Shown one piece after another: positions 7,200-64,000 of a DNA stretch of 64,000 bases. The stretch's first letter is position 1, and every line of letters begins with the position of its first letter. The notes beneath the pieces were generated by a model. It ran no database searches and was not told where the DNA came from. It saw nothing but the letters and a program-made list of their open reading frames with translations. Source of the DNA: Lentibacillus jeotgali (GTDB lineage Bacteria; Bacillota; Bacilli; Bacillales; Amphibacillaceae); contig NZ_AGAV01000003.1 in the NCBI RefSeq assembly GCF_000224785.1, positions 310,001 to 374,000 of the forward strand, in the 5' to 3' direction. Position numbers and translations under genes: made by a program.

Positions 7200-9029
7200 A
7201 TGCAATTAAGAGAAGATATCCGCAACATAGCAATTATCGCCCATGTTGACCATGGCAAGACAACACTTGTTGATCAAATGCTGAAGTATTCGGGTACATT
7301 CCGGGAAAATGAACAGGTGGATGACCGCGCCATGGACACGAACGATATTGAGCGTGAACGCGGAATAACAATTTTGTCGAAAAACACGGCAATTAAATAT
7401 AATGACACTGCAATTAATATTCTCGATACACCGGGCCACGCCGACTTTGGCGGTGAAGTGGAGCGTATCATGAAAATGGTCGACGGTGTTCTGCTTGTAG
7501 TTGATGCTTATGAGGGCTGTATGCCGCAAACACGATTTGTATTGAAAAAAGCGCTGGACCAGAAGCTGACACCGATTGTTGTGTTAAATAAAATCGACCG
7601 TCCCAATGCTCGTCCGAATGCCGTGATTGATGAAGTTCTGGATTTATTTATTGAGCTGGGTGCAGATGATGAACAGCTCGAATTTCCGGTCATCTATGCC
7701 TCCGCATTGAACGGAACTTCAGGCGAGGAGCCTGATGAACAGACGGAAACAATGGATCCGGTGTTCACAACGATATTGGATCACATTCCTGCACCGCCGG
7801 ACACATCAGATGACCCATTGCAGTTCCAGATCACCCTTTTGGATTATAATGATTATTTGGGCCGAATTGGTGTCGGACGTGTTGTTCGCGGCCGAATCAG
7901 TGTCGGACAGCAGGTTGTTGTTCTAAAAAAAGACGGCTCGCAAAAATCGTTCCGCATCAGTAAATTATTTGGATTTATCGGTCTGAAACGCGTTGAAATC
8001 CAGGAGGCAAAAGCCGGTGATATCGTGGCAATTGCCGGTATGGATGATATTAATGTAGGCGAAACAATCTGCCCGCAAGATCACCCTGAAGGGCTGCCAT
8101 GGCTCCGCATTGACGAGCCAACACTGCAGATGACCTTTTTGACAAATAACAGTCCTTTTGCCGGACGTGAAGGCAGCTATATCACATCAAGACAGATTGA
8201 AGAGCGTTTAATGAAACAGCTCGAAACTGACGTCAGTCTGCGTGTCGAGCCAACCGATTCACCTGATGCCTGGACCGTTTCAGGACGCGGTGAACTGCAT
8301 CTTTCAATTTTAATTGAAAACATGCGGCGTGAAGGCTTTGAATTGCAATTATCCAAGCCGCAAGTTATCATTAAAGAAATTGATGGTGTTAAATGTGAAC
8401 CGGTTGAACATGTGCAAATCGATGTTCCGGAAGATTATACTGGCCCGGTCATGGAATCACTTGGCGAACGCAAAGGTGAAATGATCGATATGGTCAACCA
8501 GGGGAATGGCCAGGTACGTATTGAATTTAAAGTACCTTCACGCGGTATGATTGGTTATGCAACAGAGTTCATGTCATTGACACGGGGCTATGGCATCCTG
8601 AACCATACCTTTGATTCATATGAGCCGCTTACAAAAGGTCAAGTTGGCGGAAGACGTGAGGGTGTGCTTGTTTCTCTGGAAAACGGAAAAGCATCGACTT
8701 ACGGCATTATGCAGCTTGAAGACCGGGGGATGATTTTTGTGGAGCCGGGAACCGAGGTTTATGCCGGTATGATTGTTGGAGAGCACAGCCGTGAAAATGA
8801 TTTAACTGTCAATATCACCAAAGAAAAACACCTGACAAACGTCCGGTCTTCAACTAAAGACCAGACAGCAACCATCAGAAAAACACGTGATATGTCCCTT
8901 GAAGAAGCGATTCAATACTTGAACAATGATGAATATTGCGAAGTGACTCCGGAAACAGTCCGGCTTCGTAAAAAGATATTAAACCATAGTGAACGTGAAA
9001 AAGCAGCTAAAAAAGCAAAATTAGGCTGA
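7200..9029 (+). CDS. typA: Ribosome-associated GTPase TypA/BipA
   Basis: A translational GTPase of 609 aa related to EF-G and LepA that acts on the ribosome during stress and cold. G1 AHVDHGKTT (residues about 13-21), the switch RGITI, G3 DTPGHADF and G4 NKIDR are intact, followed by domain II, the EF-G-like domain V and the TypA-specific C terminus (YLNNDEYCEVTPETVRLRKK). Length is normal. A GGAG site precedes the start. Transcription ends at a strong hairpin directly after the gene. Confidence 0.96.
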   Translation: MQLREDIRNIAIIAHVDHGKTTLVDQMLKYSGTFRENEQVDDRAMDTNDIERERGITILSKNTAIKYNDTAINILDTPGHADFGGEVERIMKMVDGVLLVVDAYEGCMPQTRFVLKKALDQKLTPIVVLNKIDRPNARPNAVIDEVLDLFIELGADDEQLEFPVIYASALNGTSGEEPDEQTETMDPVFTTILDHIPAPPDTSDDPLQFQITLLDYNDYLGRIGVGRVVRGRISVGQQVVVLKKDGSQKSFRISKLFGFIGLKRVEIQEAKAGDIVAIAGMDDINVGETICPQDHPEGLPWLRIDEPTLQMTFLTNNSPFAGREGSYITSRQIEERLMKQLETDVSLRVEPTDSPDAWTVSGRGELHLSILIENMRREGFELQLSKPQVIIKEIDGVKCEPVEHVQIDVPEDYTGPVMESLGERKGEMIDMVNQGNGQVRIEFKVPSRGMIGYATEFMSLTRGYGILNHTFDSYEPLTKGQVGGRREGVLVSLENGKASTYGIMQLEDRGMIFVEPGTEVYAGMIVGEHSRENDLTVNITKEKHLTNVRSSTKDQTATIRKTRDMSLEEAIQYLNNDEYCEVTPETVRLRKKILNHSEREKAAKKAKLG

Positions 9030-9038
9030 TAAAAGGAA

Positions 9039-9075
9039 CCGGCAATGGCAGTTAATGCTGTTGCCGGGTTTTTTT
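9039..9075 (+). terminator. Intrinsic terminator of typA
   Basis: GC-rich stem CCGGCAA/TTGCCGG with an inner GGCAG/CTG arm, followed by eight T (9068-9075), starting 10 nt after the typA stop. Confidence 0.9.
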
Positions 9076-9100
9076 GCTGCGATTGTTGCCCGGATATCGT

Positions 9101-9350
9101 CAGATGAGCGTGGATATCAACAGAAGGCAGAAAATATCGACAGAAGAGAGCGGGTATCAACAGAAGGCAGAAAATATCGACAGAAGAGAGCGGGTATCAA
9201 CAGAAGGCAGAAAGTATCGACAGAAGAGAGCGGGTATCAACAGAAGGCAGAAAATATCGACAGAAGAAAGCGAATATCAACAGAAGAGGCAAAATATTAG
9301 CAGAACAAGAGAATTATCACCAGAAGAACAGCAATAGCTTCAGAAATGAC
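9101..9350. repeat. 20-nt tandem repeat array (minisatellite)
   Basis: About thirteen consecutive 20-nt units stay in exact phase from 9101. Two unit types alternate: CAGAAGGCAGAAAATATCGA and CAGAAGAGAGCGGGTATCAA, forming a 40-nt higher-order repeat present almost identically at 9121-9160, 9161-9200, 9201-9240 and 9241-9280. Units decay toward both ends (9101-9120 and after 9281). All units begin CAGA. The 20-nt period is not a multiple of three, so the open frames across it are not coding evidence. Confidence 0.92.
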
Positions 9351-9421
9351 TCTCTAATTAATACTGACAGACGCGGTAATCCTGCTGACACTGTATATCC
9401 AGTGAAAATTATTTTAAAGGT

Positions 9422-9457
9422 AAAAACTGCTTTGCATCGATTTGCAAAGCAGTTTTT
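9422..9457 (+). terminator. Orphan intrinsic terminator after the repeat array
   Basis: A 15-bp perfect stem (AAAAACTGCTTTGCA and its complement) with a 6-nt loop and a T-run. No recognisable gene lies between this and the typA terminator; only the 20-nt array is upstream. Confidence 0.8.
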
Positions 9458-9503
9458 TATTGGCTTTCCATGCCGCTGATTCAAGAAGCAGAACATCAAA
9501 ATG

Positions 9504-9517
9504 TGTAAGCCCTTGCA
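9504..9517 (+). promoter_or_regulatory. cre site (CcpA) upstream of treP
   Basis: TGTAAGCCCTTGCA matches the consensus TGWAARCGYTWNCW at 13 of 14 positions (central CG is CC). It overlaps the -35 box of the treP promoter, a position suited to CcpA-dependent catabolite repression by glucose. Confidence 0.65.
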
Positions 9518-9541
9518 TAACATGGCTATACAAGTTATACT
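9513..9541 (+). promoter_or_regulatory. SigA-type promoter of the trehalose operon
   Basis: -35 TTGCAT (9513-9518), a 17-nt spacer and -10 TATACT (9536-9541), about 60 nt before the treP start codon. The cre site overlaps the -35 and putative TreR boxes lie in the spacer and just downstream. Confidence 0.75.
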
Positions 9542-9564
9542 AAATATTGAATTTGTATAGACAA
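9526..9564 (+). promoter_or_regulatory. Putative TreR operator boxes
   Basis: Two inversely oriented CTATACAA / TTGTATAG boxes (9526-9533 and 9553-9560). The second is part of the near-palindrome TTGTATAGACAA (9553-9564), close to the TTGTATATACAA-type tre operator known from B. subtilis. They flank the -10 box. A treR gene ends the operon, so autoregulation by trehalose-6-phosphate-responsive TreR is likely. Confidence 0.65.
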
Positions 9565-9601
9565 GTTGTAATTTTTATGTCATATCAGGGAGGTAAATCC
9601 T

Positions 9602-11515
9602 GTGTCAACTGAAGAAATAATCATCTATTCACCGGTCAGCGGTGAAGTTAGGCAATTGAAGGAAGTGCCCGATCCGACATTTTCACAAAAAATGATGGGT
9701 GATGGGCTGGCAGTTGAACCGAGTGAAGGAAAAGTTGTGGCACCGATAAACGGTGAGGTGGTGCAACTATTTCCGACAAAGCACGCTGTCGGAATACAGG
9801 GTGACTCGGGAATTGAAATCCTTATCCATATTGGTCTCGATACAGTCAATATGGACGGTGAGGGATTTGAGGCTTCCGTCGGCCAGGGTGATTATGTAAA
9901 AGCCGGGGATACACTGATTACATTTGATAAAAACCTTGTTCTAGAAAAGGCACAAGGTGCTGTAACACCGGTTATCATCACCAATGGAAACGAAGTGGAA
10001 ACCCTAGAGAAGACGGGCGACAATACCGTTGAAGCTGGTTCATCCGTACTGCTTAAAGCGTCCATGAAAGGTGAGCAGGAACCAGATACACCGGCTGTAT
10101 CAGCAGGAGAATACCGAAACGAAGCAAAGGATATTGTTGCTGCATTGGGCGGTGAGGATAATATCAGTGTTGCAACCCATTGCGTGACAAGGCTGCGTTT
10201 TGCATTAAACGATCAGGATCAAGTTGATGATAACAGACTGGAAAATATGGATATTGTCAAGGGCTCATTTTTGGCAAACGGACAATTTCAGGTTGTCATT
10301 GGACAGGGAACTGTTGATAAAGTATATGCAGCAATGGTCAACGAAACAGGTATAGGTGAAGCTACCAAAGAGGATGTCAAAGCGGCCATTGGTAAAAAGC
10401 AAAATTGGCTTCAGCGCGGGATCAAGGTGCTCGCGGATATCTTCATTCCGATACTGCCCGCTATCGTAACAGCCGGTCTTTTGATGGGTATTAATAACAT
10501 ACTCGCAAATCCGGGTATTTTCTACGATGAGCAGTCGGTTATCGAAGTGCATCAGCAGTGGGCCGGTGTTGCCGATATGATTAATGTCATCGCCAATACT
10601 GCTTTCACATTTTTACCGGCGTTAATTGGTTGGTCTGCGGTGAAGAGGTTTGGCGGAAATGAGCTGCTGGGTGTTGTGCTTGGCCTGATTATGGTTCACC
10701 CGGACTTATTGAATGCCTGGTCATACGGTGACGCATTGAAAGAGGGGGAAATCCCGACTTGGAATCTGTTCGGCTGGGAAATTGACAAGATAGGTTATCA
10801 GGGGCAAGTGCTCCCTGTATTATTCGCGTCATGGATTATGGCAAAAATTGAATTGTTCCTGAAAAAACGTGTAATGGATTCACTGCAGCTGCTGGTCGTG
10901 GCACCAGTTGCACTTCTATTGGCCGGATTTTTGACATTTATTATTATTGGTCCGATCACCTTCACAATTGGAACGTGGATTACAGATGGTCTTGTTGCAC
11001 TGTTTGATCAATTCGCCATTTTGGGCGGACTGGTTTACGGAGCAATTTATGGACCGCTCGTTATCACCGGTATGCACCATACATTCCTTGCAGTGGATCT
11101 GCAGCTTATAGGAAGTACAGGTTCGACATTCCTGTGGCCGATTCTCGCATTATCAAACATTGCACAAGGTTCGGCCGCATTTGCAATGATGGTTGCTGCA
11201 AAAGATGAGAAATTAAAAGGTTTATCGGGAACGTCAGGGCTCTCGGCTTATCTAGGAATAACGGAACCGGCTATGTTTGGTGTAAACTTAAGGTATAAAT
11301 TCCCATTCATTGCTGCAGTGATTGGTTCGTCCATTGCTGGCGCCTACATTACCATGGAGAACGTGCGGGCATCTTCAGTTGGTATCGGCGGTGTCCCCGG
11401 CATACTCTCCATTATACCAGAGGGCTGGCTTGCCTTTGGAATCGGTATAGCAATCGTCATTGTTGTGCCATTTGTGATCACGTATTTAATGGCTTTTCGC
11501 AAACTTGATAAATAA
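9602..11515 (+). CDS. treP: Trehalose-type PTS transporter EIIABC (EIIA fused at N terminus)
   Basis: Takes up trehalose and phosphorylates it to trehalose-6-phosphate in the membrane. The domain order is unusual: an N-terminal IIA-Glc-like domain (residues 1-155, active H76 in ILIHIGLD, helper H61), then EIIB (from about 170, phospho-cysteine C194 in ATHCVTRLRF), then a multi-spanning EIIC (about 268-637, with GITEPAMFG). The GTG start at 9602 has GGGAGGT upstream. It is first in treP-treA-treR, which fixes the sugar as trehalose with good confidence. B. subtilis TreP lacks the EIIA part. Confidence 0.9.
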   Translation: MSTEEIIIYSPVSGEVRQLKEVPDPTFSQKMMGDGLAVEPSEGKVVAPINGEVVQLFPTKHAVGIQGDSGIEILIHIGLDTVNMDGEGFEASVGQGDYVKAGDTLITFDKNLVLEKAQGAVTPVIITNGNEVETLEKTGDNTVEAGSSVLLKASMKGEQEPDTPAVSAGEYRNEAKDIVAALGGEDNISVATHCVTRLRFALNDQDQVDDNRLENMDIVKGSFLANGQFQVVIGQGTVDKVYAAMVNETGIGEATKEDVKAAIGKKQNWLQRGIKVLADIFIPILPAIVTAGLLMGINNILANPGIFYDEQSVIEVHQQWAGVADMINVIANTAFTFLPALIGWSAVKRFGGNELLGVVLGLIMVHPDLLNAWSYGDALKEGEIPTWNLFGWEIDKIGYQGQVLPVLFASWIMAKIELFLKKRVMDSLQLLVVAPVALLLAGFLTFIIIGPITFTIGTWITDGLVALFDQFAILGGLVYGAIYGPLVITGMHHTFLAVDLQLIGSTGSTFLWPILALSNIAQGSAAFAMMVAAKDEKLKGLSGTSGLSAYLGITEPAMFGVNLRYKFPFIAAVIGSSIAGAYITMENVRASSVGIGGVPGILSIIPEGWLAFGIGIAIVIVVPFVITYLMAFRKLDK

Positions 11516-16924: not shown

Positions 16925-17099
16925 AGAAGACGTCCTTTCTATTAATAGAGTCTACTAGGGTCTTCCCGACGAGATAGCAGTGTTAAACATAGTGATCCAA
17001 ATTATGTTTAAAATCGTTTACTGTATATACTTTTTTCCTTTTAAGAAACACTGTGGTATCCTAATGAAAATACGTCTTAGAGCTGAGAAGGAGTATGTT

Positions 17100-17666
17100 A
17101 TGCGGGAACAAGATGCAGAACTGTTTTATCGTGTCCAGAATAAAGATGAGGACGCACTGGAACAGTTATATGATCGCTATGAAAAATTGTTATTCTCTTT
17201 TTCGTATCGTATGACCAATAATAAATTTCTTGCAGAAGAAGCTGTCCAGGATGTTTTCACAAAGATCTGGTCAAGACAGAGACATTTCGATGAAGAAAAA
17301 GGTAAGTTTTCTTCGTGGTTATTAACGGTCACACGAAATGCATGTATTGATTTATTGCGAAAAAAGAAAGAGCCGGCTTATGAACTGGAGGAACGGGACG
17401 CCCTTCATGCACAGGAACCGACACCGGAAGAAACGGTGGAGTGGCAGGAACGTGGTGAAGAGATTCGGGGAGCTGTCAGACAATTAACGGAAGAACAGCA
17501 GGAAATCATCGAATTATTTTATTTCAAAAGGATGTCACAGACCAACATAGCCAAAACATGCCATATACCATTAGGGACTGTTAAAGGAAGAGTGAGGCTG
17601 GCTTTAAAGCATTTAAAAGAAATATTGGCATCAAAGAACGAAAGGGGGGTTCGGGATGACGGCTAA
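17100..17666 (+). CDS. ECF-type RNA polymerase sigma factor
   Basis: A 188-aa group IV sigma factor. Region 2 (residues about 10-80) includes AEEAVQDVFTKIW and the FSSWLLTVTRNACIDLLR block; region 4 (about 125-178) includes an HTH with MSQTNIAKTCHIPLGTVKGR. ATG 17100 has AGAAGGAG upstream. Its last 11 nt overlap the anti-sigma gene. Together with the RskA-like anti-sigma partner it probably controls this locus, including the sortase genes downstream; the target promoter is not established. Confidence 0.92.
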   Translation: MREQDAELFYRVQNKDEDALEQLYDRYEKLLFSFSYRMTNNKFLAEEAVQDVFTKIWSRQRHFDEEKGKFSSWLLTVTRNACIDLLRKKKEPAYELEERDALHAQEPTPEETVEWQERGEEIRGAVRQLTEEQQEIIELFYFKRMSQTNIAKTCHIPLGTVKGRVRLALKHLKEILASKNERGVRDDG

Positions 17667-18423
17667 TCATTGTGATCGTCTGCTTGATTATTTTAATGAC
17701 CAGCTGACGGATGAACAGAAAGCGGAATTTGAGGCGCATTTACTGGAATGTGAAGATTGCCGGATGGAATTGGCCGAACTTGAGCAATTGACCGAAGTTC
17801 TGCCATACAGCAGTGAGCCTGTTGATCCGCCAAGCGGCATGAAAGAACGTGTGTTGTCAAATGTCATTGGGGAAAAGGCGGATGATGTACATGAAGAAGA
17901 AAATGTTGTTCCTGTTCCGGAGAGCCGGAATGAGCCGGCTAAAAAGCGCAGAGGATGGTATAAACCGTTAATGGCGGCAGTATTGACGCTTTCCTTAGTT
18001 GGAAACGGGGCGGCAGTCATTTATATTACAAATAATGAGCAGACAACCGAACCAGCGCCTGAACCTGAAGGAGGCGTTTCCCTCGATACACTCGAAACAA
18101 TGAGGACATTACAGCCATCTGAAGGGGTTAACGCTCAAGCTACTGCGATGATGATCAGCCAAAATGATCAAACAAATCTGGTCGTTCAGGCGAATGGATT
18201 AGAGGAACTCGAAGGTGAGGAAACCTATCAAGTGTGGGTGCTAGAGGGTGAACAGCCATACCGCGCCGGCACGTTTGTTCCGAATGAAGACGGTGACGGC
18301 GGTGTCTCCTATGTTATGGATTATGAGGGAGAACAAAACTTTGACACAATCGCCATTACCAAAGAACCCGATGCAAACAGTCAGACACCCCAGGGAGATA
18401 TACTTCTAAGCTCATCACTATAA
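17656..18423 (+). CDS. Membrane anti-sigma factor, zinc type with RskA domain
   Basis: A 255-aa protein that holds the ECF sigma factor at the membrane. N-terminal zinc-binding anti-sigma domain with H28, C32, C35 (AHLLECEDC); one TM segment (about residues 98-120, PLMAAVLTLSLVGNGAAVIY); an extracytoplasmic RskA-type domain with TYQVWVLEGEQPYRAGTFVP. Start overlaps the sigma gene. Release of the sigma factor would need a signal or proteolysis; the signal is unknown. Confidence 0.9.
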   Translation: MTANHCDRLLDYFNDQLTDEQKAEFEAHLLECEDCRMELAELEQLTEVLPYSSEPVDPPSGMKERVLSNVIGEKADDVHEEENVVPVPESRNEPAKKRRGWYKPLMAAVLTLSLVGNGAAVIYITNNEQTTEPAPEPEGGVSLDTLETMRTLQPSEGVNAQATAMMISQNDQTNLVVQANGLEELEGEETYQVWVLEGEQPYRAGTFVPNEDGDGGVSYVMDYEGEQNFDTIAITKEPDANSQTPQGDILLSSSL

Positions 18424-18473: not shown

Positions 18474-18571
18474 CTAACTTTTCAGGGCAATAAGTGATCC
18501 GATTGCAACTCTGCTTCGTTAGCCTAGTAGAAAACAAGAAAGACAAATCTTTTAAAGGAGTGGAGTCAAGG

Positions 18572-19927
18572 ATGAATTGGAAAAGAGCATTAGTTGCAGC
18601 ACCATTAAGTGCGGCGCTCATATTCTCAGCAACGGGAGGACCGGTGAGTGCAGAAACATCAGACAGTAACCCTTCTGTTGATACAGCAGCGGTTGATCTG
18701 AGAGCTGATTTGGGACATTTGCTGAGTGAACACGCATTCCTTGCCATTGAAGCAATGCGCAACGGAGCGGATGGATCAGAGGATTTCGAGGCATCTGTTG
18801 CTGCATTGGAGTCAAACACAGCGGATTTATCGGAAGCAATCGCATCGGTTTATGGCGACAAAGCAGGTCAATCGTTTAAAGACATGTGGAGTGCACATAT
18901 CGGCTATTTCGTTGATTATGTGAATGCAACAGCTGAAGGGGACGAAGAAGCGAAACAGGCTGCATTGGATGAGTTATCACAATATCGTGAAGACTTTTCC
19001 CAATTTCTTGAAACCGCTACTGAGGAACGTTTGGAAGCCGGATCACTGGCGGACAGCCTGCAAATGCATGTGGATCAATTAATTGGCGCTTTCGACAGCT
19101 ATGTGGCCGAGGATTATGAGCAAGCGTATAATCATGAGCGTGAAGCAATTGGACACATGCATATGGTAGCAAAGGGATTGTCATCAGCTGTCGTTGATCA
19201 AATGCCGGATCAGTTTAATAACACCATGGCCGTGACACCTGCGGGAGATCTGCGGACAAAGTTAGGTAAGCTTTTATCAGAGCATGCCGGCATTGCAGCC
19301 ATTGCCATGCAGAATGGGATTGAAGGTGCGCCGGATTTTGAAGCATCAACTAATGCATTAAGCAGTAACACGGAGGATTTGAGTTCAGCCATTGCATCTG
19401 TGTACGGTGATGAAGCTGGCCAGGCGTTTAACAACATGTGGTCAGAGCATATCGGTTATTTTGTCGATTACGTAAACGCAACTGCTGAAGAAGATGAAGA
19501 AGCCAAGCAAGAAGCACTGGATAACCTTCAAATGTATAAAGAGGATTTTTCAGCGTTCATTGAAGAAGCAACCGGCGGCAATGTGGAAGCATCTGCCATG
19601 GCTGAGGGGTTACAGGCACATGTCAATCAGCTAATCGGAGCGTTTGATAGCTATGCCAATGGATCATATGATGAAGCGTTTAACCAGACACGGGATGCTT
19701 ATGGCCATATGTATGGAGCTGCTAAATTAATTTCATCCGGAATCGTAGCGGACAATGCGGCTATGTTCGCAAGCGATATGCCTTCTGAAATGCCTGATAC
19801 CGGTATGGGAACGATGGCTGAACAAAACAGTAATATGATGTGGGCATGGATTCTGGGTACAAGTGTATTTGCACTGGCGGCACTAATAGCAATCCGTAAA
19901 TATACCACGGCAAACCATGATAAGTAG
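18572..19927 (+). CDS. Exported duplicated-domain protein with MPDTG wall-sorting motif
   Basis: A 451-aa surface protein: signal peptide (cleavage probably after VSA, residue 27), two tandem homologous helical domains (about 42-215 and 226-395; both contain LLSEHA, ASVYGD, MWSxHIGYFVDYVNATAE, HVxQLIGAFDSY and a GHM motif), then MPDTG (407-411), a short polar linker, a hydrophobic anchor (WAWILGTSVFALAALIAI) and the tail RKYTTANHDK. MPDTG is a variant of the sortase motif LPXTG. The neighbouring class F sortase is its likely ligase. Conserved His and Met residues in both repeats could bind metal or ligand, but this is a guess. ATG 18572 chosen for the signal peptide and AAAGGAG upstream. Confidence 0.82.
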   Translation: MNWKRALVAAPLSAALIFSATGGPVSAETSDSNPSVDTAAVDLRADLGHLLSEHAFLAIEAMRNGADGSEDFEASVAALESNTADLSEAIASVYGDKAGQSFKDMWSAHIGYFVDYVNATAEGDEEAKQAALDELSQYREDFSQFLETATEERLEAGSLADSLQMHVDQLIGAFDSYVAEDYEQAYNHEREAIGHMHMVAKGLSSAVVDQMPDQFNNTMAVTPAGDLRTKLGKLLSEHAGIAAIAMQNGIEGAPDFEASTNALSSNTEDLSSAIASVYGDEAGQAFNNMWSEHIGYFVDYVNATAEEDEEAKQEALDNLQMYKEDFSAFIEEATGGNVEASAMAEGLQAHVNQLIGAFDSYANGSYDEAFNQTRDAYGHMYGAAKLISSGIVADNAAMFASDMPSEMPDTGMGTMAEQNSNMMWAWILGTSVFALAALIAIRKYTTANHDK

Positions 19928-19953
19928 TTTCTTACCCGAGAGGAGGCTGTGTG

Positions 19954-20619
19954 ATGTGGAAATTTCTTAGCATATTGCTGCTGATGTTAATGGTCAGCTG
20001 CGGACAGACACAGAGCACAGGCTCCTCCGGTCAGCCGGATAAAGAGCGTGTAAACGATCAGGGAGAAGCCACTGAGGAAGTAGATGATTCAGCAAAACAG
20101 ACGGATCATAACAGTAATCAGGGTGATGACCATATTCAAACAACGTCATCACCGATCATAACAGATCCAGAATACGGGATTAAGCCTGAGACCATTCAAA
20201 TTGACAGTATCGGTGTAGATTCGGTTGTTGAAGGCGTTGGTCTGATGGAGAACGGGGAAATGGCTGTTCCCGAAGATTTTCGGATCACCGGCTGGTATGA
20301 GCAGGGAGCAAAACCAGGTGAACGGGGGAGCGCTGTTATTGCCGGTCACGTGGATGACAAAACAGGTCCTGGTGTATTCTTTGACCTGGAAGACCTGCAA
20401 AAAGGTGATGAGGTGGAGGTCCTCAATGACAAAGGTGATAAATTAGTGTTCGAAGTCGTCGATAAACAGGTTTTTCCTATGGACGATGCGCCGGTGAAAG
20501 ATATCTTTGGTTATACTTCCAGGAGAATGTTGAATTTGGTTACCTGTACCGGCCCGTTTGATGAGTCAAGAGGTGGTCACATTGATCGGCTTGTTGTTTA
20601 TACAGAATTAAAAGAATAA
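19954..20619 (+). CDS. Class F sortase
   Basis: A transpeptidase that would cleave the MPDTG protein encoded 26 nt upstream and attach it to the wall. The 221-aa product has the sortase triad H132 (AGHVDD), C198 (LVTCTG) and R212 (HIDRLVVY). Instead of a plain N-terminal TM, its N terminus (LLLMLMVSCGQ) looks like a lipoprotein signal with C16, followed by an acidic low-complexity linker to about residue 70. ATG 19954 follows AGGAGG. Ends at a terminator. Confidence 0.88.
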   Translation: MWKFLSILLLMLMVSCGQTQSTGSSGQPDKERVNDQGEATEEVDDSAKQTDHNSNQGDDHIQTTSSPIITDPEYGIKPETIQIDSIGVDSVVEGVGLMENGEMAVPEDFRITGWYEQGAKPGERGSAVIAGHVDDKTGPGVFFDLEDLQKGDEVEVLNDKGDKLVFEVVDKQVFPMDDAPVKDIFGYTSRRMLNLVTCTGPFDESRGGHIDRLVVYTELKE

Positions 20620-20918: not shown

Positions 20919-22771
20919 TTAACTTACCGGCGATTTCTGTTTATCATTTGCTTTCACTGCGAATTGATTGTGATAAAGTTCTGCATAAAACCCGCCTTTT
21001 GCAAGTAATGCTTCATGACTTCCCTGCTCAATTACCTGTCCCTGATCCATCACGAGAATGGTATCAGCCTGCTGGATCGTGGAGAGTCTGTGCGCAATAA
21101 TGAAACTTGTTCTTCCTTTCATCAGGCGATTTAAGGCACGCTGTATATGAATTTCCGTTCGTGCATCCACATTGCTTGTTGCTTCATCAAGGATCAGGAT
21201 TGCCGGGTCGGATATAACTGCCCGGGCAATCGTCAGAAGTTGCTTTTGCCCCTGTGAAATATTGGATGTCGATTCATTCAACAAGCTATCATAGCCGTGG
21301 GATAACGTTCGGATAAACCGGTCTGCATAGGCAGCCTCAGCTGCCTGGATGATTTCCTCTTCTGTTGCATCTTCCCTTCCATAAGCAATATTTTCTTTTA
21401 TCGTTCCATGAAAGAGCCAGGTATCCTGCAGCACAAGGCCGAACATACTGCGCAAATGATCGCGGTTTAAATCTCTAATGGGTATGCCGTCGATTGTGAT
21501 CCGACCGCTGTCTGCTTCATAAAAACGCATCAAAAGATTAATGATGGTGGTCTTGCCTGCGCCGGTAGGGCCGACGATAGCAGCAGTTTGCCCCGGTTTT
21601 ACATCAAAATGGACATCTTCCATAACGGGCTTATCCTGCTGATATCCAAAAGTAACGTGTTCAAAACGGACATGGCCTTTCGGATTAGGTAAAACCTGTT
21701 TATCATCAGATGCTTCCTCTTCGGGTTCATCAAGGATTTCAAACACACGCTCAGCAGCTGCAACCGTTGATTGAATAATATTTGATACATTCGCTACCCG
21801 TGTAATCGGCTGGGAGAACAATCTAATATAAAGAATAAAAGCCTGCACTTCGCCAATGGTCATTGATCTTAACATAACAAGAATACTTCCAAGAACACAA
21901 ATGAGCACGTAGATGATATTATTGATGAAACGTAAGATGGGCATAATGATGCTTGAGATAAATTGAGCCTTCCATCCTGAATGATAGAGTTGGCTGTTTA
22001 CAGCTTGAAAATGACCAATAGACTGCTGTTCCCGTCCAAAGGCCTTCATTGTTTCGTGGCCTGTGTACATTTCTTCTACATGTGTATTTAACACCCCGAG
22101 CGATTGTTGCCGTCCTTTGAAAAATTTCTGGGACATTGAGACAACTTTTTTAGTGACAAGAATACTTAGCGGCAATGTCAAAAGGACAATAATGGTTAGA
22201 AGCGGACTGATGAGCAGCATCATAATGGTGACACCAATCATCGTAATCGTGGATGTGATTATTTGTGTAAGGCTTTGCCGCAGTGTACTGCTCACCTTTT
22301 CCAGGTCATTGACAGCCCGGCTTAGTACATCGCCATGTTTTGCTTTATCAAAAAAATGAAGTGGCAGCAGGGAGAGTTTTCTATTGATTTCTTTCCTTAG
22401 CGTATACACAACCTTTTGCGAAATCCCTGCCATCACATACTCCTGTACATAGATGAAACAGCTGCTTAACAAATATAATGCCGCAAGTACAAGGAGGATC
22501 TTCAACACAAGGAAAAAGTCAATCCCTTCCCCACGCACGCCCTGGAACAATTCCGTGATTGCAATACCGAGAATGGTGGGGCTGAGTATAGTGAATAAGG
22601 TGCTTGCCACAGCAGAAATCGCAACGAGTACGATTTTCCATTTATGTTCACCCAAATAGCTGGCCAGACGCTTTAAGGTATACTTGAAATCTTGTGGTTT
22701 TTGGATGAACTGTTCGGATTCCGTTTCTTTGTATGTTTAATAGACTGTGTTATGACACTTTTTTTGTTCAT
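20919..22771 (-). CDS. ABC exporter half-transporter, frameshifted near N terminus
   Basis: Membrane-ATPase fusion, half of a probable heterodimeric multidrug-type exporter (YfiC-like). Six TM segments precede an ATPase with Walker A GPTGAGKTT, signature ISQGQKQ and Walker B ILDEATSNVD (canonical Glu). The natural start is ATG 22771 (GAGGAGG upstream, overlapping the previous stop as ATGA), but that frame stops after 32 codons. The conserved KPQDFKYTLKRLASYL stretch lies in another frame. One missing base in the T5 run at 22698-22702 would join them. As it stands, only a TTG at 22655 could start the long frame, losing the N-terminal elbow. Mutation or sequencing error. Confidence 0.8.
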
Positions 22772-24492
22772 GAAACTTCCTCCTCAAAATCTTGTGAGGA
22801 TACAATTTCCTGATAAACCCCGCAGGTTTCTTTCAGTTCCTCATGGCTGCCTGCACCCGCAATCATTCCTTCATCAAGGACAATAATTTTATCCGCCTGT
22901 TCTGCAATGGTGGCACGTTGGGTAACCATTAATACACTGGAATCACCGGTTTCCTTTCTGAGTGAGGAGAACAGTGTTGCTGTTGTTTTTGCGTCAAGCG
23001 CAGAGAAACTATCATCAAAGATATAGACTTCAGGGTTTCTCAGAAGGGCACGGGCTATGGCAATCCGCTGCCGCTGTCCTCCTGAGAGATTCGTCCCAAA
23101 CCGGGAGACGGTTGTATCAAAGCCATTCTCCAGCTGGGAAATAAACCGGGCCTCTGAAACTGCTGCGGCATGATACAAGTCTTCCTTCGTTGCCGTTTCA
23201 TTGCCATACCGGATATTATCCGCGATCGTCCCCCTGAACAGATGCGCCTGCTGAGAGACAAATCCTATCTTTTCACGGAGCTTTTGCTGGGAAATATTTC
23301 GTATATCTATACCATCAAGGAGAATGCTGCCGTGATGAATGTCATAAAAACGCAGAAGCAGACTGGCAAGTGTTGATTTCCCTGCACCAGTTCCGCCAAT
23401 AATAGCTGTGATCTCCCCAGGGTTTACCTGGAATGAAACAGCGGAAAGCACAGACTTCTCTGCTTGCGGATAGCTGAATGATATATCCCTGAATTCAATT
23501 TCTCCCCTATGTTCCCCGGCTTCCACAGGATATTCTGGATCTTTTACACTTGTATCGGTATCAAGTATCTCGTTAATTCTCTTCGCAGAAACAGAAGCAC
23601 GGGGGATAGCAACAAACATGACAGAGGCCATGATTAAAGAAAACATAATCTGCATCGCATACTGAATGAATGCCATTAATTCACCGACCTGAAGAGATCC
23701 TGCCTCTATTCTGAAGGCGCCTATCCATATCAAAGCAATAATGGTAAAGTTAAGAATGATTGTCATGACTGGTGTTAAAATGGCTATCATCCGGTTGACT
23801 GTGGTGGCTGTTTCGGAAAAGTCAAGATTTGCCTCATTAAACCGGCGCCCCTCATGTTCTGTTCGATTAAATGCCCGGACTGTGCCTACACCCGTCAACC
23901 CTTCCCTTAAGATAAGATTTAAGTGATCTGTTTTTTCTTTTAGACTTTTAAAGAGTGGGATAGCCTTTTTTGCAATCACAAATATGGAAATAATGATGAG
24001 CGGCAACGGTGCAAAAATAACTAAGGAAAGCGTGGGGTTCATCCATAGTGCTATGAAAAAGGCACCAATAAATAACATAGGCGCCGTAATCATCGTTCTA
24101 AGCAGCATGGTCAGCACCTGTTGAACCTGCATCACATCATTGGTCGTTCTTGTAATCAGCGAAGAGGTACCGAGTTGGTCAAATTCCTTTAGCGAAAAGT
24201 TTTCCACACGGGTAAAGACCTTTTCGCGTACATCCCTGCTAAAGCCTGCTGTGACTTTCGCTGCAAATAAACTGCCCCAGATGGAGAAAACGCCGATCAT
24301 AGCTGTTACGAATAGCATGAGGGCACCAATCTGGATAATATAAGCGATGTCTTCATTTACTATTCCGGTATCTACAATCGCAGCCATGAGTGTTGGCAGA
24401 AACAATTGGGATAAGGATTGCAGAAAGAGAAGGATCAGCATAACAGCAATTGACTTACGATACGGTTTTAAGAGCTGGAACAGCTTAAGCAT
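22768..24492 (-). CDS. ABC exporter half-transporter (YfiB-like, degenerate site)
   Basis: A 574-aa fusion of a six-TM domain and an ATPase: Walker A GGTGAGKST, signature LSGGQRQR, Walker B VYIFDDSFSALD. The catalytic Glu after Walker B is Asp, as in the non-consensus subunit of heterodimeric type IV exporters, so it probably pairs with the product of the overlapping downstream gene. ATG 24492 has AAAGGTGAT upstream. A terminator separates it from the peptide genes before it. Confidence 0.9.
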   Translation of the reverse strand: MLKLFQLLKPYRKSIAVMLILLFLQSLSQLFLPTLMAAIVDTGIVNEDIAYIIQIGALMLFVTAMIGVFSIWGSLFAAKVTAGFSRDVREKVFTRVENFSLKEFDQLGTSSLITRTTNDVMQVQQVLTMLLRTMITAPMLFIGAFFIALWMNPTLSLVIFAPLPLIIISIFVIAKKAIPLFKSLKEKTDHLNLILREGLTGVGTVRAFNRTEHEGRRFNEANLDFSETATTVNRMIAILTPVMTIILNFTIIALIWIGAFRIEAGSLQVGELMAFIQYAMQIMFSLIMASVMFVAIPRASVSAKRINEILDTDTSVKDPEYPVEAGEHRGEIEFRDISFSYPQAEKSVLSAVSFQVNPGEITAIIGGTGAGKSTLASLLLRFYDIHHGSILLDGIDIRNISQQKLREKIGFVSQQAHLFRGTIADNIRYGNETATKEDLYHAAAVSEARFISQLENGFDTTVSRFGTNLSGGQRQRIAIARALLRNPEVYIFDDSFSALDAKTTATLFSSLRKETGDSSVLMVTQRATIAEQADKIIVLDEGMIAGAGSHEELKETCGVYQEIVSSQDFEEEVS

Positions 24493-24624
24493 CAATAATC
24501 ACCTTTATTCCTTGATTTTTATATGTAAGAGGTTTAGCAATTGAAATCGAAAGAACAGCTTGAGTATTTCTCTTGGGGCATGGCTGCCTTTGGAAAAGAT
24601 GTAGACCGCTTGGCACACTAGGCA

Positions 24625-24660
24625 TGAAAAAGGTCGGGGATCTATAAAATATCCCCGACT
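24625..24660 (-). terminator. Terminator after the acidic-peptide genes
   Basis: Perfect 9-bp stem GTCGGGGAT/ATCCCCGAC with a 9-nt loop followed on the minus strand by CTTTTTC. It ends the peptide transcript about 50 nt after the last peptide gene. Confidence 0.82.
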
Positions 24661-24708: not shown

Positions 24709-24855
24709 TTATAGTAAATCACTTACATCTACATCAAGATTACCTGAATCATTTGCGCTGTCGTTTAGAATGTCGCTTACATCTACATCTGCATTACCTG
24801 AATCATTTGCGCTGTCATTGAGAACATCGCTTAAAATTTGCGTTACGTCTAACAT
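24709..24855 (-). CDS. Acidic repeat peptide A (48 aa)
   Basis: A 48-aa peptide beginning MLDVTQILSDVLNDSAND. It contains two copies of an 18-residue unit (ILNDSANDSGNxDVDVSD type). It has 12 Asp and no Lys, Arg, His, Glu, Pro, Cys or aromatic residue. ATG 24855 has a strong GGGAGGTGA 5 nt upstream; a longer frame from 24915 has no RBS. It is the last of three paralogous genes on this strand and is followed by a terminator. I know no named family; no signal peptide is evident. Confidence 0.75.
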   Translation of the reverse strand: MLDVTQILSDVLNDSANDSGNADVDVSDILNDSANDSGNLDVDVSDLL

Positions 24856-24914
24856 GATGTCACCTCCCTTTTGCATCCGACTGTTTATGCCATTCTTGAT
24901 TTCAGCTGAGGTCA

Positions 24915-25007
24915 TTAAAGGATGTCGCTTACGTCCACATCAAGGTTGGCAGAATCATTGGCACTGCCGTTCAAGATGTCGCTTAGAATTTGGGTTGCAT
25001 CCATCAT
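24915..25007 (-). CDS. Acidic peptide B (30 aa)
   Basis: A 30-aa peptide, MMDATQILSDILNGSAND followed by SANLDVDVSDIL. It aligns without gaps to peptide C (25222-25314) and to the first 30 residues of peptide A. GAGGTGA stands 5 nt before ATG 25007. Composition again lacks basic, aromatic and Cys residues (6 Asp, no Glu). The conserved amino acids together with silent differences between copies indicate selection on the protein. Function unknown. Confidence 0.75.
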   Translation of the reverse strand: MMDATQILSDILNGSANDSANLDVDVSDIL

Positions 25008-25070
25008 GATTCACCTCTCTTTCTAATTAGCTAGCTTGTTAAGTGAAGGATTGGACCAATCTGATTTTTA

Positions 25071-25089
25071 ATACGATGTTTTATCGTAT
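25071..25089. promoter_or_regulatory. Small inverted repeat upstream of peptide B
   Basis: ATACGAT-GTTTT-ATCGTAT, 7-bp stem with 5-nt loop, adjacent to a TATAAT-like sequence. Operator or leader hairpin; not assigned. Confidence 0.3.
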
Positions 25090-25106
25090 CTATAATACAT
25101 TACCTC

Positions 25107-25125
25107 GTTTAATAAATTATTAAAC
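25107..25125. promoter_or_regulatory. Perfect 19-nt palindrome in the peptide-gene intergenic region
   Basis: GTTTAATAA-A-TTATTAAAC is a 9-bp perfect inverted repeat centred about 110 nt upstream of peptide B. It has the size and symmetry of an operator; no regulator gene is adjacent. Confidence 0.4.
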
Positions 25126-25150
25126 ATTGGATAACTAATAATTTTTAAAC

Positions 25151-25204
25151 TTATATAAGATTGGCTATTTCTACATTGATGTTGACTGCATCATTATTTT
25201 CCCT
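25151..25204 (-). pseudogene. Possible decayed fourth acidic-peptide copy
   Basis: Between peptides C and B, one minus frame reads ENNDAVNINVEIANLI and then stops. It mirrors the end of the family (ANDSANVDLNISDLL) by conservative substitutions at most positions and stops at the same place. It has no start codon and a stop lies 17 codons upstream, so if related it is a remnant. Confidence 0.35.
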
Positions 25205-25221
25205 CTACTTATGGTCGTTTC

Positions 25222-25314
25222 TTAAAGTAAGTCGCTGATGTTCAGGTCAACATTGGCAGAATCATTAGCACTGCCATTTAGAATGTCACTTAAGATTTGT
25301 GTTACATCTGTCAT
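25222..25314 (-). CDS. Acidic peptide C (30 aa)
   Basis: A 30-aa peptide, MTDVTQILSDILNGSAND followed by SANVDLNISDLL, first of the paralogous set on the minus strand. GAGGTGA lies 7 nt before ATG 25314, and the leader GAGGTGAATCAT is shared with peptide B, showing recent duplication of the whole gene with its RBS. Five Asp, no Lys, Arg, His, Glu, Cys or aromatic residue. Function unknown. Confidence 0.75.
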   Translation of the reverse strand: MTDVTQILSDILNGSANDSANVDLNISDLL

Positions 25315-25405
25315 TATGATTCACCTCGCTTTTACAAAGCTAACGCAGAAAATAGTCATTTGGATCATCATTTTTTAAATTTTTTTGGTCAGTGGGGTAG
25401 AGGAA

Positions 25406-25496
25406 GGATGAAACGCGCAACCTCGTTCAGTGTCGTTTTTGGTCTGACATCATGTTATGATTAGGGCAAAATGACTAAGGAGCAAGGTGAATGAAA
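25406..25496 (+). repeat. Dispersed intergenic repeat, copy 2
   Basis: Matches 20733-20820. Here the repeat supplies the RBS (AGCAAGGTGA) and first codons of the CapA-like gene, so the copy may be the functional leader from which the other was duplicated. Confidence 0.75.
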
Positions 25497-26663
25497 CAGG
25501 GTCAATTAAACTGGATTGTTCTGTTGCTGATAATCTGTGTGCTGTTATCTGCGTGTACCGGTGAGGAACAAGAGACACCAAAGGTTGCCAATTACCATGA
25601 AGCATCAGACCGAGTCCAGGCAATAAAAACGCAAAAGCCTGATACGGGACACAAGGAAATAACTATTTCTGCCATTGGCGATATGCTGATTCACAGCAGA
25701 GTGTATGAAGATGCGCGGACAGACGATGGCGGATTTAACTTCATGCCGATGCTTGAGCAGGTTAAGCCATATTTAAATGATTCGACCATAACGTTTGCCA
25801 ATCAGGAAACGATGATTGGCGGTGAAGACTTAGGACTGTCGACCTACCCGGCGTTTAACAGTCCTTATGCAGTCGGTACTGCCTTAAACAAAGTCGGAGT
25901 TGATGTTGTTTCCCTTGCTAACAATCATACAATGGACCGCGGGGAAGAAGCGATCAAGAATGCCATCGAACATTGGGAAAAGATTGATATGATGTATACG
26001 GGTGCTTATAAAAGTGAGGGTGACAGCAATAAGATGCGTGTTTACGAGACAGACGAAGGTATTTCGGTGGCTTTTCTGGCTTATACCTATGGCACAAACG
26101 GTATTCCTATACCCAATGGGAAAGATCACTTGGTGAATTTGATTGACAAAGAAGTCATGTCCAAGCGGATTGGCGAGGCTAAGCAGCAGGCGGACGCGGT
26201 CATATTAAGCCTGCATTATGGCACTCAATATGAGCGAATGCCGACTGCAGAACAGAAAGACCTTGCTCAGTTTGCTGCGAATGAAGGAGTAGATGTCATA
26301 TTAGGTCATCATCCGCATGTGCTGCAGCCGATTGACTGGGTTGAAGGAAAAAACGGCCACAAGACGCTTGTTGCCTATTCGCTCGGTAATTTTCTCTCCG
26401 GACAGGATGAGTTTTACCGCCGGATCGGAGGCATTTTCCGGTTTTCAATAGAGAAAGCCATGGAGAATGGCGAGACAACGGTTAAGGTGAAAGAGCCAAA
26501 GTTTTTGCCGACGTTTGTGAATTACGAGAACTGGGCAAATTTTGAAGTTGTCCCGATGTATCAATTGACCGATGACGAGTTTACTAATGCTAAGGGACAT
26601 TACCAGGAGATTAAGAAGCATATGTCGCGGTGGTTGCCGGAGCTTGAGTTTATCGAGGAATAG
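25491..26663 (+). CDS. CapA family lipoprotein (poly-gamma-glutamate type metallophosphoesterase fold)
   Basis: A 390-aa predicted lipoprotein (lipobox LLSACTG, C22) with a CapA/PGA_cap domain: GDMLIHSRVYED near residue 63, ANHTMDRG near 143, SLHYGTQYE and GHHPHVLQP with the metal-binding His/Asp set. CapA proteins take part in poly-gamma-glutamate synthesis or anchoring, but no capB or capC lies nearby, so the role here is open. The RBS is inside a repeat present twice in the window. Confidence 0.85.
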   Translation: MKQGQLNWIVLLLIICVLLSACTGEEQETPKVANYHEASDRVQAIKTQKPDTGHKEITISAIGDMLIHSRVYEDARTDDGGFNFMPMLEQVKPYLNDSTITFANQETMIGGEDLGLSTYPAFNSPYAVGTALNKVGVDVVSLANNHTMDRGEEAIKNAIEHWEKIDMMYTGAYKSEGDSNKMRVYETDEGISVAFLAYTYGTNGIPIPNGKDHLVNLIDKEVMSKRIGEAKQQADAVILSLHYGTQYERMPTAEQKDLAQFAANEGVDVILGHHPHVLQPIDWVEGKNGHKTLVAYSLGNFLSGQDEFYRRIGGIFRFSIEKAMENGETTVKVKEPKFLPTFVNYENWANFEVVPMYQLTDDEFTNAKGHYQEIKKHMSRWLPELEFIEE

Positions 26664-60008: not shown

Positions 60009-60083
60009 TCCACAGTAGCTCAGTGGTAGAGCAATCGGCTGTTAACCGATCCGTCGCAGGTTCGAGTCCTGCCTGTGGAGCCA
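60009..60083 (+). tRNA. tRNA-Asn (GTT)
   Basis: 75 nt, acceptor TCCACAG/CTGTGGA, anticodon GTT, encoded CCA. Confidence 0.95.
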
Positions 60084-60089
60084 TTATCT

Positions 60090-60180
60090 GGAGAAGTACT
60101 CAAGTGGCTGAAGAGGCGCCCCTGCTAAGGGTGTAGGTCGTGTGAACGGCGCGAGGGTTCAAATCCCTCCTTCTCCGCCA
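60090..60180 (+). tRNA. tRNA-Ser (GCT)
   Basis: 91 nt with a long variable arm, acceptor GGAGAAG/CTTCTCC, anticodon GCT, encoded CCA. Confidence 0.95.
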
Positions 60181-60186
60181 TTTCAT

Positions 60187-60258
60187 GGCCCGTTGGTCAA
60201 GCGGTTAAGACACCGCCCTTTCACGGCGGTAACACGGGTTCGAGTCCCGTACGGGTCA
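60187..60258 (+). tRNA. tRNA-Glu (TTC)
   Basis: 72 nt, acceptor GGCCCGT/ACGGGTC, anticodon TTC; the 3' CCA is not encoded. Confidence 0.93.
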
Positions 60259-60286
60259 TTCCTTGCTTTTTCAACTAAAACGGTTG

Positions 60287-60363
60287 GGTCCGGTAGTTCA
60301 GCTGGTTAGAATGCCTGCCTGTCACGCAGGAGGTCGCGGGTTCGAGTCCCGTCCGGACCGCCA
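60287..60363 (+). tRNA. tRNA-Asp (GTC)
   Basis: 77 nt, acceptor GGTCCGG/CCGGACC, anticodon GTC, encoded CCA. Confidence 0.95.
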
Positions 60364-60368
60364 TTCGT

Positions 60369-60443
60369 TGGGCTATAGCCAAGCGGTAAGGCATCGGGTT
60401 TTGATCCCGTGATTCGCTGGTTCGAATCCAGCTAGCCCAGCCA
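60369..60443 (+). tRNA. tRNA-Gln (TTG)
   Basis: 75 nt, acceptor TGGGCTA/TAGCCCA, anticodon TTG, encoded CCA. Confidence 0.95.
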
Positions 60444-60511
60444 TTTTCTGTGCAAGATAACTTGAAAAAGAGTATCCATATATTTAGGCAAAACTCCTTA
60501 TAACTGAACAT

Positions 60512-60587
60512 GAGCCATTAGCTCAGCTGGCAGAGCATCTGACTTTTAATCAGAGGGTCGGAGGTTCGAATCCTCCATGGCTCACCA
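60512..60587 (+). tRNA. tRNA-Lys (TTT)
   Basis: 76 nt, acceptor GAGCCAT/ATGGCTC, anticodon TTT, encoded CCA. Confidence 0.95.
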
Positions 60588-60593
60588 CTCGTT

Positions 60594-60675
60594 GCGGATG
60601 TGGCGGAATTGGCAGACGCGCTAGACCCAGGATCTAGTGTCTTACGACGTGGGGGTTCGACTCCCTCCATCCGCA
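60594..60675 (+). tRNA. tRNA-Leu (CAG)
   Basis: Long variable arm, acceptor GCGGATG/CATCCGC, anticodon loop CCCAGGA (CAG); CCA not encoded. Confidence 0.92.
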
Positions 60676-60729
60676 TTTTTATCACTTATATTGCTGTGGG
60701 ACTCACGGCATTTTATTTTGCTTAAATAC

Positions 60730-60813
<84 letters not shown>

Positions 60814-60822
60814 TAAAAATTG

Positions 60823-60851
60823 TTGACAAATCATCATTTTCCTGATATATT
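60823..60851 (+). promoter_or_regulatory. Internal promoter in the tRNA cluster
   Basis: TTGACA (60823-60828), 17-nt spacer, TATATT (60846-60851), 18 nt before tRNA-Arg; probably drives the last four tRNAs and the rRNA operon. Confidence 0.85.
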
Positions 60852-60869
60852 GAAAGATGTCGCTTTAAA

Positions 60870-60946
<77 letters not shown>

Positions 60947-60952
60947 TATTAA

Positions 60953-61029
60953 CGGGAAGTAGCTCAGCTTGGCAGAGCACATGGTTTGGGACCATGGGGT
61001 CGCAGGTTCAAATCCTGTCTTCCCGACCA
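60953..61029 (+). tRNA. tRNA-Pro (TGG)
   Basis: 77 nt, acceptor CGGGAAG/CTTCCCG, anticodon TGG, encoded CCA. Confidence 0.95.
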
Positions 61030-61062
61030 TCGAAAATTTATAAAGCTATTAACGTAATCTTT

Positions 61063-61136
61063 GCGGGTGTAGTTTAGTGGTAAAACCTCAGCCTTCCAAG
61101 CTGATGTCGTGGGTTCGATTCCCATCACCCGCTCCA
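61063..61136 (+). tRNA. tRNA-Gly (TCC)
   Basis: 74 nt, acceptor GCGGGTG/CACCCGC, anticodon TCC, encoded CCA. Confidence 0.95.
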
Positions 61137-61141
61137 TTTGC

Positions 61142-61215
61142 GGGCCTGTAGCTCAGTCGGTCAGAGCGCACGCCTGATAAGCGTGAGGTCGGTGGTTCGA
61201 GTCCACCCAGGCCCA
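61142..61215 (+). tRNA. tRNA-Ile (GAT)
   Basis: 74 nt, acceptor GGGCCTG/CAGGCCC, anticodon GAT; CCA not encoded. Confidence 0.94.
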
Positions 61216-61379
61216 TTTTGCTCCTTGAAAACTGAACAAAACAACCAGTATGACAAAGATGTCAGAGGTAAGAGGTCGGAAGCCGGAACTTGGTTTTGGC
61301 AGAAGACCAATGAAACCCTGTATCAATTTTTGAAGCAAAGCCATGAAAGAGATTGATCGGTGTCAATCTCCTAACAAAC

Positions 61380-64000
<2,621 letters not shown>

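Follow-up and report, generated by a model that had tools for sequence, protein, structure and literature searches.

Leaderless peptide export by dedicated ABC pumps is known for cationic or membrane-active peptides, and the phenol-soluble modulins (PSMs) are leaderless, amphipathic and partly encoded in tandem. In Staphylococcus these short paralogous peptides are exported by the ABC transporter Pmt, which the available part of the source describes as having separate ATPase and membrane subunits encoded in a pmtR-pmtABCD operon with a GntR regulator (PMC5080381). A second group comprises the leaderless multi-peptide bacteriocins; aureocin A70 consists of four peptides of 30-31 aa, and like garvicin KS and the cereucins it combines 3-4 unmodified tandem peptides of ~30 aa with export genes nearby, as set out in the portions of the review that were accessible (PMC6131525). 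A third is the BmrB-BmrCD system of Bacillus subtilis, in which a 53-aa leader precedes an ABC pair in the order small ORF, terminator and heterodimeric ABC exporter (PMC4191407, accessible sections). How does a locus with features of all three compare with each of them? Within a window of 64 kb, by which we mean the whole stretch of Lentibacillus jeotgali DNA analysed, three peptide genes lie in tandem upstream of an ABC exporter pair, and we consider their best reading to be that they form the output arm of an extracytoplasmic function (ECF) sigma regulon. In the open-access literature, to which the search was largely confined, no description of this peptide/ECF/exporter system was found.

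Peptide genes of the window and their family

A preliminary description made from the sequence alone had reported three minus-strand ORFs of 48, 30 and 30 aa with strong ribosome-binding sites, and these are present with the positions and sequences given there. Gene 1 (25222-25314) encodes a 30-aa peptide, MTDVTQILSDILNGSANDSANVDLNISDLL, behind the Shine-Dalgarno (SD) sequence GGGAGGTGA, and gene 2 (24915-25007) encodes 30 or 29 aa behind AGAGAGGTGA, since either of two adjacent ATGs is a possible start. Gene 3 (24709-24855), with the SD GCGAGGTGA, encodes 48 aa and corresponds to the 30-aa peptide with its C-terminal 18-residue unit doubled by an in-frame 54-bp tandem duplication (24718-24833, minus strand; 2.1 copies, 85% matches). 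The interval separating genes 1 and 2 holds, on the same strand, the 3' part of a fourth copy (25151-25198; NNDAVNINVEIANLI and then a stop, no start), and the closest likeness of this relic, in a comparison by eye, is to the first copy in locus L040. Lys, Arg, His, Glu, Pro, Cys and aromatic residues are absent from all three window peptides, as had been claimed. Elsewhere in the window, a PGA_cap-family lipoprotein-like gene (25491-26663, plus strand) is divergent from the array, and an ORF resembling a PGA_cap-family gene was seen by eye after the sortase gene in L175. Rfam at the gathering threshold returned only rRNA and tRNA for the window, where positions 60009-64000 hold twelve tRNA genes, then 16S and then the start of 23S rRNA.

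The family comprises 80 copies in 14 multi-copy loci of bacilli, with 3-11 tandem copies each (3, 3, 11, 4, 4, 4, 3, 4, 7, 5, 11, 11, 6 and 4). Convincing carriers amounted to 2 of the 12 genomes of the genus, namely the window's own genome and G005, alongside weak matches in G003 and G004 (E 0.98 and 0.48). At wider ranks the peptide was found in 7/159 genomes of the family, in 8/397 of an order sample (two of these doubtful single copies) and in 6/398 of a class sample, three of them weak (G554, G565 and G825, E about 0.007-0.009); among 269 genomes of a phylum sample the own genome alone matched. A scan of contigs confirmed five named loci, in Lentibacillus kapialis, L. sediminis, Halobacillus hunanensis, Shouchella shacheensis and Alkalicoccobacillus porphyridii. 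Two single weak copies, G452 (with one internal TGA) and G509, are doubtful and were excluded from the 14 loci; no ABC pair was found beside either within the 9.6 and 15 kb of sequence retrieved, and neither genome has the surface protein surf450 described below. L090 and L091 are lone diverged peptide-like ORFs without an ABC pair or surf450 and may be relics or chance.

Alignment of the family has zero internal gaps. Codon and charge counts refer to 75 of the 80 copies; the five left out are copy 2 of L009, the third and fourth copies of L048, and copy 1 of both L086 and L087. In these last two no ATG, GTG or TTG lies within six codons of the TQ. Residues D3, T5, Q6, L8 and L12 are invariant in 75/75 copies, N17 is kept in 73 and N21 in 72, and position 14 is G in 42, E in 23 and D in 10. 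The composition is less strict than in the window: Lys, Arg or His occurs in 4 copies, Tyr in 4, Phe in 19 and Glu in 34, with Pro and Cys in none. Net charge averages -5.4. A conserved GG, GA or GS cleavage site was sought and is not present across the 75 copies.

Are these short ORFs translated? Among the window copies pS is 0.84 and pN 0.11, giving a pN/pS of 0.13, and 65% of the differences fall at codon position 3. By the Nei-Gojobori method pN/pS ranges from 0.11 to 0.26 within loci and is 0.23 over 2452 between-locus pairs, against 1.07 in a control in which the same bases were read one position later. A strict SD precedes 72 of 75 copies, compared with 244 of 5230 ATGs (4.7%) in the same loci. 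The preliminary description had proposed that the peptides are translated and selected as proteins, and had named homologous short ORFs with a conserved SD and a codon-position bias as the checks. Both were found, and the low pN/pS and conserved SD support translation under protein-level purifying selection.

The earlier statement that no named family applies also holds, with 0 matches in Pfam, NCBIfam, PHROGs and PADLOC at E 0.1. Pfam and NCBIfam hold PSM models, and neither database gave a PSM/delta-lysin family match, at the same E of 0.1. The 48-aa peptide was unmatched in phage and plasmid records, 17 pattern matches in viral contigs yielded 0 confirmed, and a profile search of the PDB returned weak matches only (best E 0.49). 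Structure modelling of the peptide gave a poor result (pLDDT 66.5, pTM 0.23), with helices predicted at low confidence at 4-15 and 26-34. An EF-hand-like calcium loop, picked out by eye from N17, S19, N21, D25 and position 28, was set aside because loop position 6 is hydrophobic and not Gly.

The exporter pair and the intervening terminator

Two ABC exporter genes lie downstream of the array on the minus strand. Subunit A (22768-24495) is a 575-aa fused TMD-NBD protein with a degenerate Walker-B glutamate (FDD), and subunit B (20919-22655) is 578 aa as read and carries a degenerate signature (SQGQ); like heterodimeric ABC exporters, the pair has one degenerate ATP site. The only whole domains above cut-off in either subunit are ABC_membrane and ABC_tran, and a C39 peptidase is absent from both. 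An ABC pair follows the array directly on the same strand in all 13 loci with flank available, the contig of L050 ending before the ABC genes, and by eye the flanking genes beyond array and pair differ among loci. In a tree of 52 subunit A proteins, the 11 peptide-linked sequences form one side of a branch (support 100/99) against 41 unlinked ones, which are the best matches of thresholded searches and not a full census, and 0 of 500 label shuffles were as low. PEP_L044 and PEP_L087 are long branches in this tree, which excludes L041 and L086 (split), L050 (contig end), and L114 and L136 (shorter than 540 aa). Close relatives of subunit A also occur apart from the peptides: among 24 genomes of the family with a close subunit A, the peptide motif lies within 1.5 kb upstream in 6 and not in 18, and among 27 further subunit A loci from the order search it is upstream in 2 and not in 25.

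The preliminary description had suggested an exported or surface-assembled peptide. The dedicated ABC pair downstream of the array makes the export part of that suggestion probable, and surface assembly is the less certain part. An alternative hypothesis is that the peptides are never secreted and modulate the exporter or envelope from inside the cell. They have no signal peptide, and a basic-cavity signature separating the transmembrane domains of peptide-linked subunit A from those of unlinked relatives was sought and not found, both of which would suit an intracellular role; however, a dedicated exporter clade sits directly downstream in 13/13 loci, and we regard this alternative as very unlikely.

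A second alternative is that the array encodes a multi-peptide leaderless bacteriocin, with the ABC pair providing both export and protection. The locus has the tandem leaderless paralogues of 29-30 aa and the adjacent ABC exporter that characterize such systems, much as in aureocin A70, but it lacks the cationic peptides and high pI: the leaderless bacteriocins tabulated in the accessible portions of the review carry +2 to +7 with a pI above 10 (PMC6131525), whereas net charge here is -4 to -12. In addition, the ABC pair is the only element that recurs beside the arrays, by eye, with no separate immunity gene. A bacteriocin is therefore an unlikely explanation.

A terminator-type hairpin with a 9-bp stem followed by CTTTTT (24633-24659, minus strand) occupies the interval between array and ABC genes. 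In 13/13 loci a GC-rich hairpin with a T-run is found in the gap that separates the final peptide stop from the ABC genes (shuffled mean 0.075, maximum 1). A generic sigma-70 and terminator scan near the array gave nothing above shuffles; it admitted loops of up to 8 nt, and that of this hairpin is 9 nt. This arrangement raises a third alternative, that the small ORFs encode leader peptides translated only to detect ribosome-targeting drugs and to regulate how far transcription continues into an ABC drug pump, the BmrB/BmrCD arrangement. The constant terminator and the position of BmrB ahead of its ABC pair argue for it. However, BmrB is one ORF, with both terminator and anti-terminator located within its 3' end, in the sections of the report available to us (PMC4191407), against 3-11 ORFs here. 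The hairpin of the present loci lies wholly outside coding sequence, at a distance past the last peptide stop that ranges from 9 nt in L041 up to more than 80 nt in L049, and what is conserved in the ORFs is the amino acids and not the RNA. Attenuation of this type is accordingly quite unlikely.

Pump integrity varies among the carriers. The usual N-terminal part of subunit B is out of frame in the window (22680-22773), whereas its relatives are 588-628 aa long with a start overlapping the end of subunit A; either real decay or a sequencing error may account for this. Subunit A is split into two frames in L041 (6261-7963) and in L086 and is whole in near relatives. These frame breaks, which affect 3 of the 13 loci, may reflect pump decay or misreading, and judged from sequence not every carrier can be assumed to have a functional pump.

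A shared ECF-type promoter and its predicted regulon

What would switch such an array on? Upstream of its first copy, preceded by A-tracts, is TGATCC-N16-CGTTAGC (25339-25367, minus strand), whose spacing and layout we take to be those of ECF promoters. The strict motif precedes the first copy in 12/14 loci (shuffle mean 0.002); the two exceptions are L041, with a CAATAGC variant, and L049, in which it stands before copies 2 and 3. The window contains two occurrences of the strict motif, with 0.01 expected: that of the array and one at 18495-18523 (plus strand) ahead of a surface protein gene. Genome-wide, 27 strict motifs were counted in 11 carriers, of which 12 lie upstream of arrays, 10 before surf450 genes, 2 before CHRD-domain genes and 3 elsewhere, one of these last lacking fetched surroundings. 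The array-linked motifs include two about 550 bp upstream (G192 and G385) and one before a degenerate copy (G348). Seven same-genus non-carriers have 4 motifs, none with an obvious gene behind it, and the reversed pattern occurs twice in all 18 genomes.

The second motif of the window stands among plus-strand genes for a sigma factor, an anti-sigma factor, a surface protein and a sortase, 5-8 kb from the array. The ECF sigma factor (17100-17666) is a 188-aa protein with Sigma70_r2 and r4_2 domains, and the adjoining gene (17656-18423) encodes an RskA-type anti-sigma factor with zf-HC2 and RskA_C, all of these Pfam domains scoring above their cut-offs. A relaxed form of the motif, TGATCC-N16-CGTT, precedes the sigma gene (16993-17018, plus strand), as it does in 11 of 14 carriers (shuffle mean 0.17), which points to autoregulation. 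Next is surf450 (18572-19927), a secreted two-repeat helical surface protein of 451 aa; it falls below the cut-off of the GVDTG sorting model, and an MPDTG-type sorting signal and hydrophobic tail are visible in its sequence. Its structure model has a pLDDT of 70, and a fold search gave no PDB match at E <= 0.001. The sortase gene (19951-20619) is class F-like, scoring below the NCBIfam class F cut-off (140.5 vs 166) and above the Pfam sortase cut-off.

Sigma, anti-sigma, surf450 and sortase genes are consecutive in 7 of the 9 surf450 or promoter loci fetched, and the sigma/anti-sigma pair is kept in 7/9, the exceptions being L181 and L182. In those seven genomes the peptide array is distant or on a separate contig, and it is therefore the promoter, not neighbourhood, that links array and regulon. 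An ECF homologue (E <= 1e-30) is present in 14/14 carriers and in 0/6 same-genus non-carriers tested. Likewise, surf450 is present in 14/14 carriers and in 11/152 other genomes of the family (P 7e-8, a value that ignores shared ancestry), and in 0/10 other genomes of the genus. L040 holds a second surf450 paralogue, 39% identical, and after it a 316-aa ORF (7900-10232, minus strand); the two stand directly upstream of its 11-copy array and have a copy of the ECF-type promoter to themselves.

An anti-sigma gene beside the sigma gene, and one promoter shared by the sigma gene, its adjacent target and the array, are what an ECF regulon would be expected to have, and we regard the comparative evidence for ECF-regulon control of the array, drawn from these genome comparisons, as strong. 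The pairing of this sigma factor with this promoter is predicted from adjacency and conservation alone. A CHRD-domain secreted protein is a possible third target of the regulon; its gene carries the same ECF-type promoter in L182 (G385) and L173 (G192), one of the two having been domain-scanned. The spore-coat role that the preliminary description had offered is not supported; the arrays share their promoter with the ECF sigma gene and the sortase-anchored protein gene. Could the peptides instead be an extracellular signal, exported and then sensed at the surface, for instance via the anti-sigma factor, in a self-reinforcing ECF circuit? Apparent autoregulation of the ECF gene and its co-occurrence with the peptides in every carrier fit such a circuit, but ECF, anti-sigma and surf450 genes are present in genomes without peptides (L187-L189, L191 and L192), and 11 near-identical copies would be unusual for a pheromone. 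A signalling role thus appears improbable, and because surf450 and the sigma factor occur without peptides, the peptides are better regarded as an accessory of the regulon.

Proposed mechanism and comparison with known systems

The reading that we favour, and judge moderately likely, is that the anionic, leaderless peptides are made under induction by the ECF sigma factor and reach the cell surface through an ABC pump of their own. An envelope signal would free the sigma factor and lead to high-level transcription of the tandem peptide genes, whose many copies may serve dosage. The terminator 3' of the array would let part of the transcripts reach the two ABC genes, such that peptides outnumber pumps. 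The peptides, predicted to be leaderless, with neither a signal peptide nor double-glycine processing, would be exported whole by the dedicated heterodimeric exporter. The set of genes, their copy number, the terminator and the lack of leaders all fit a product that is secreted in abundance by a pump expressed at a lower level. The least certain steps are those outside the cell, where the peptides, alongside the co-regulated anchored protein, may work through sheer quantity by covering the cell surface with an anionic amphipathic coat or matrix, which could sequester cations or cationic antimicrobials.

The peptides are probably secreted and of a previously undescribed kind. Tentatively, they could represent a new class of stress-induced secreted peptides, in which an ECF sigma factor that also controls a sortase-anchored helical protein switches on amplified arrays for strictly anionic, leaderless peptides of 30 residues, and a co-evolved exporter releases them to form or charge an extracellular layer, either a coat sequestering cations or antimicrobials or a fibre in which the 18-residue repeat, visible in the 48-aa copy, would stack head to tail. 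If the proposed mechanism is right, the known export of leaderless peptides through dedicated ABC pumps would gain an anionic counterpart under an envelope-stress sigma factor, the ECF sigma factor would have a predicted promoter sequence, a loop of autoregulation and a short list of targets, and a function would be offered for genes short enough to escape gene callers.

The locus differs from each described system in a particular way. Double-glycine peptides are paired with a C39 exporter, and neither a C39 domain nor a cleavage site was found here. By sequence the nearest relatives of the pump are the MarR-linked heterodimeric ABC exporters of Bacillales, which have no peptide motif within 1.5 kb upstream and have a MarR gene immediately upstream in 3/3 scanned. 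BmrB is one ORF overlapping its terminator, as far as the accessible account goes (PMC4191407), whereas the arrays consist of 3-11 selected copies with a separate downstream hairpin and contain no single leader ORF overlapping a terminator. Aureocin A70, garvicin KS and the cereucins are strongly cationic in the portions of the review at hand (PMC6131525), in contrast to the anionic family of the window with almost no Lys, Arg or His. The likeness to the PSM/Pmt system of Staphylococcus lies in short paralogous peptides and ABC export; where Pmt has separate ATPase and membrane subunits, the present locus has two fused TMD-NBD proteins behind an ECF-type promoter.
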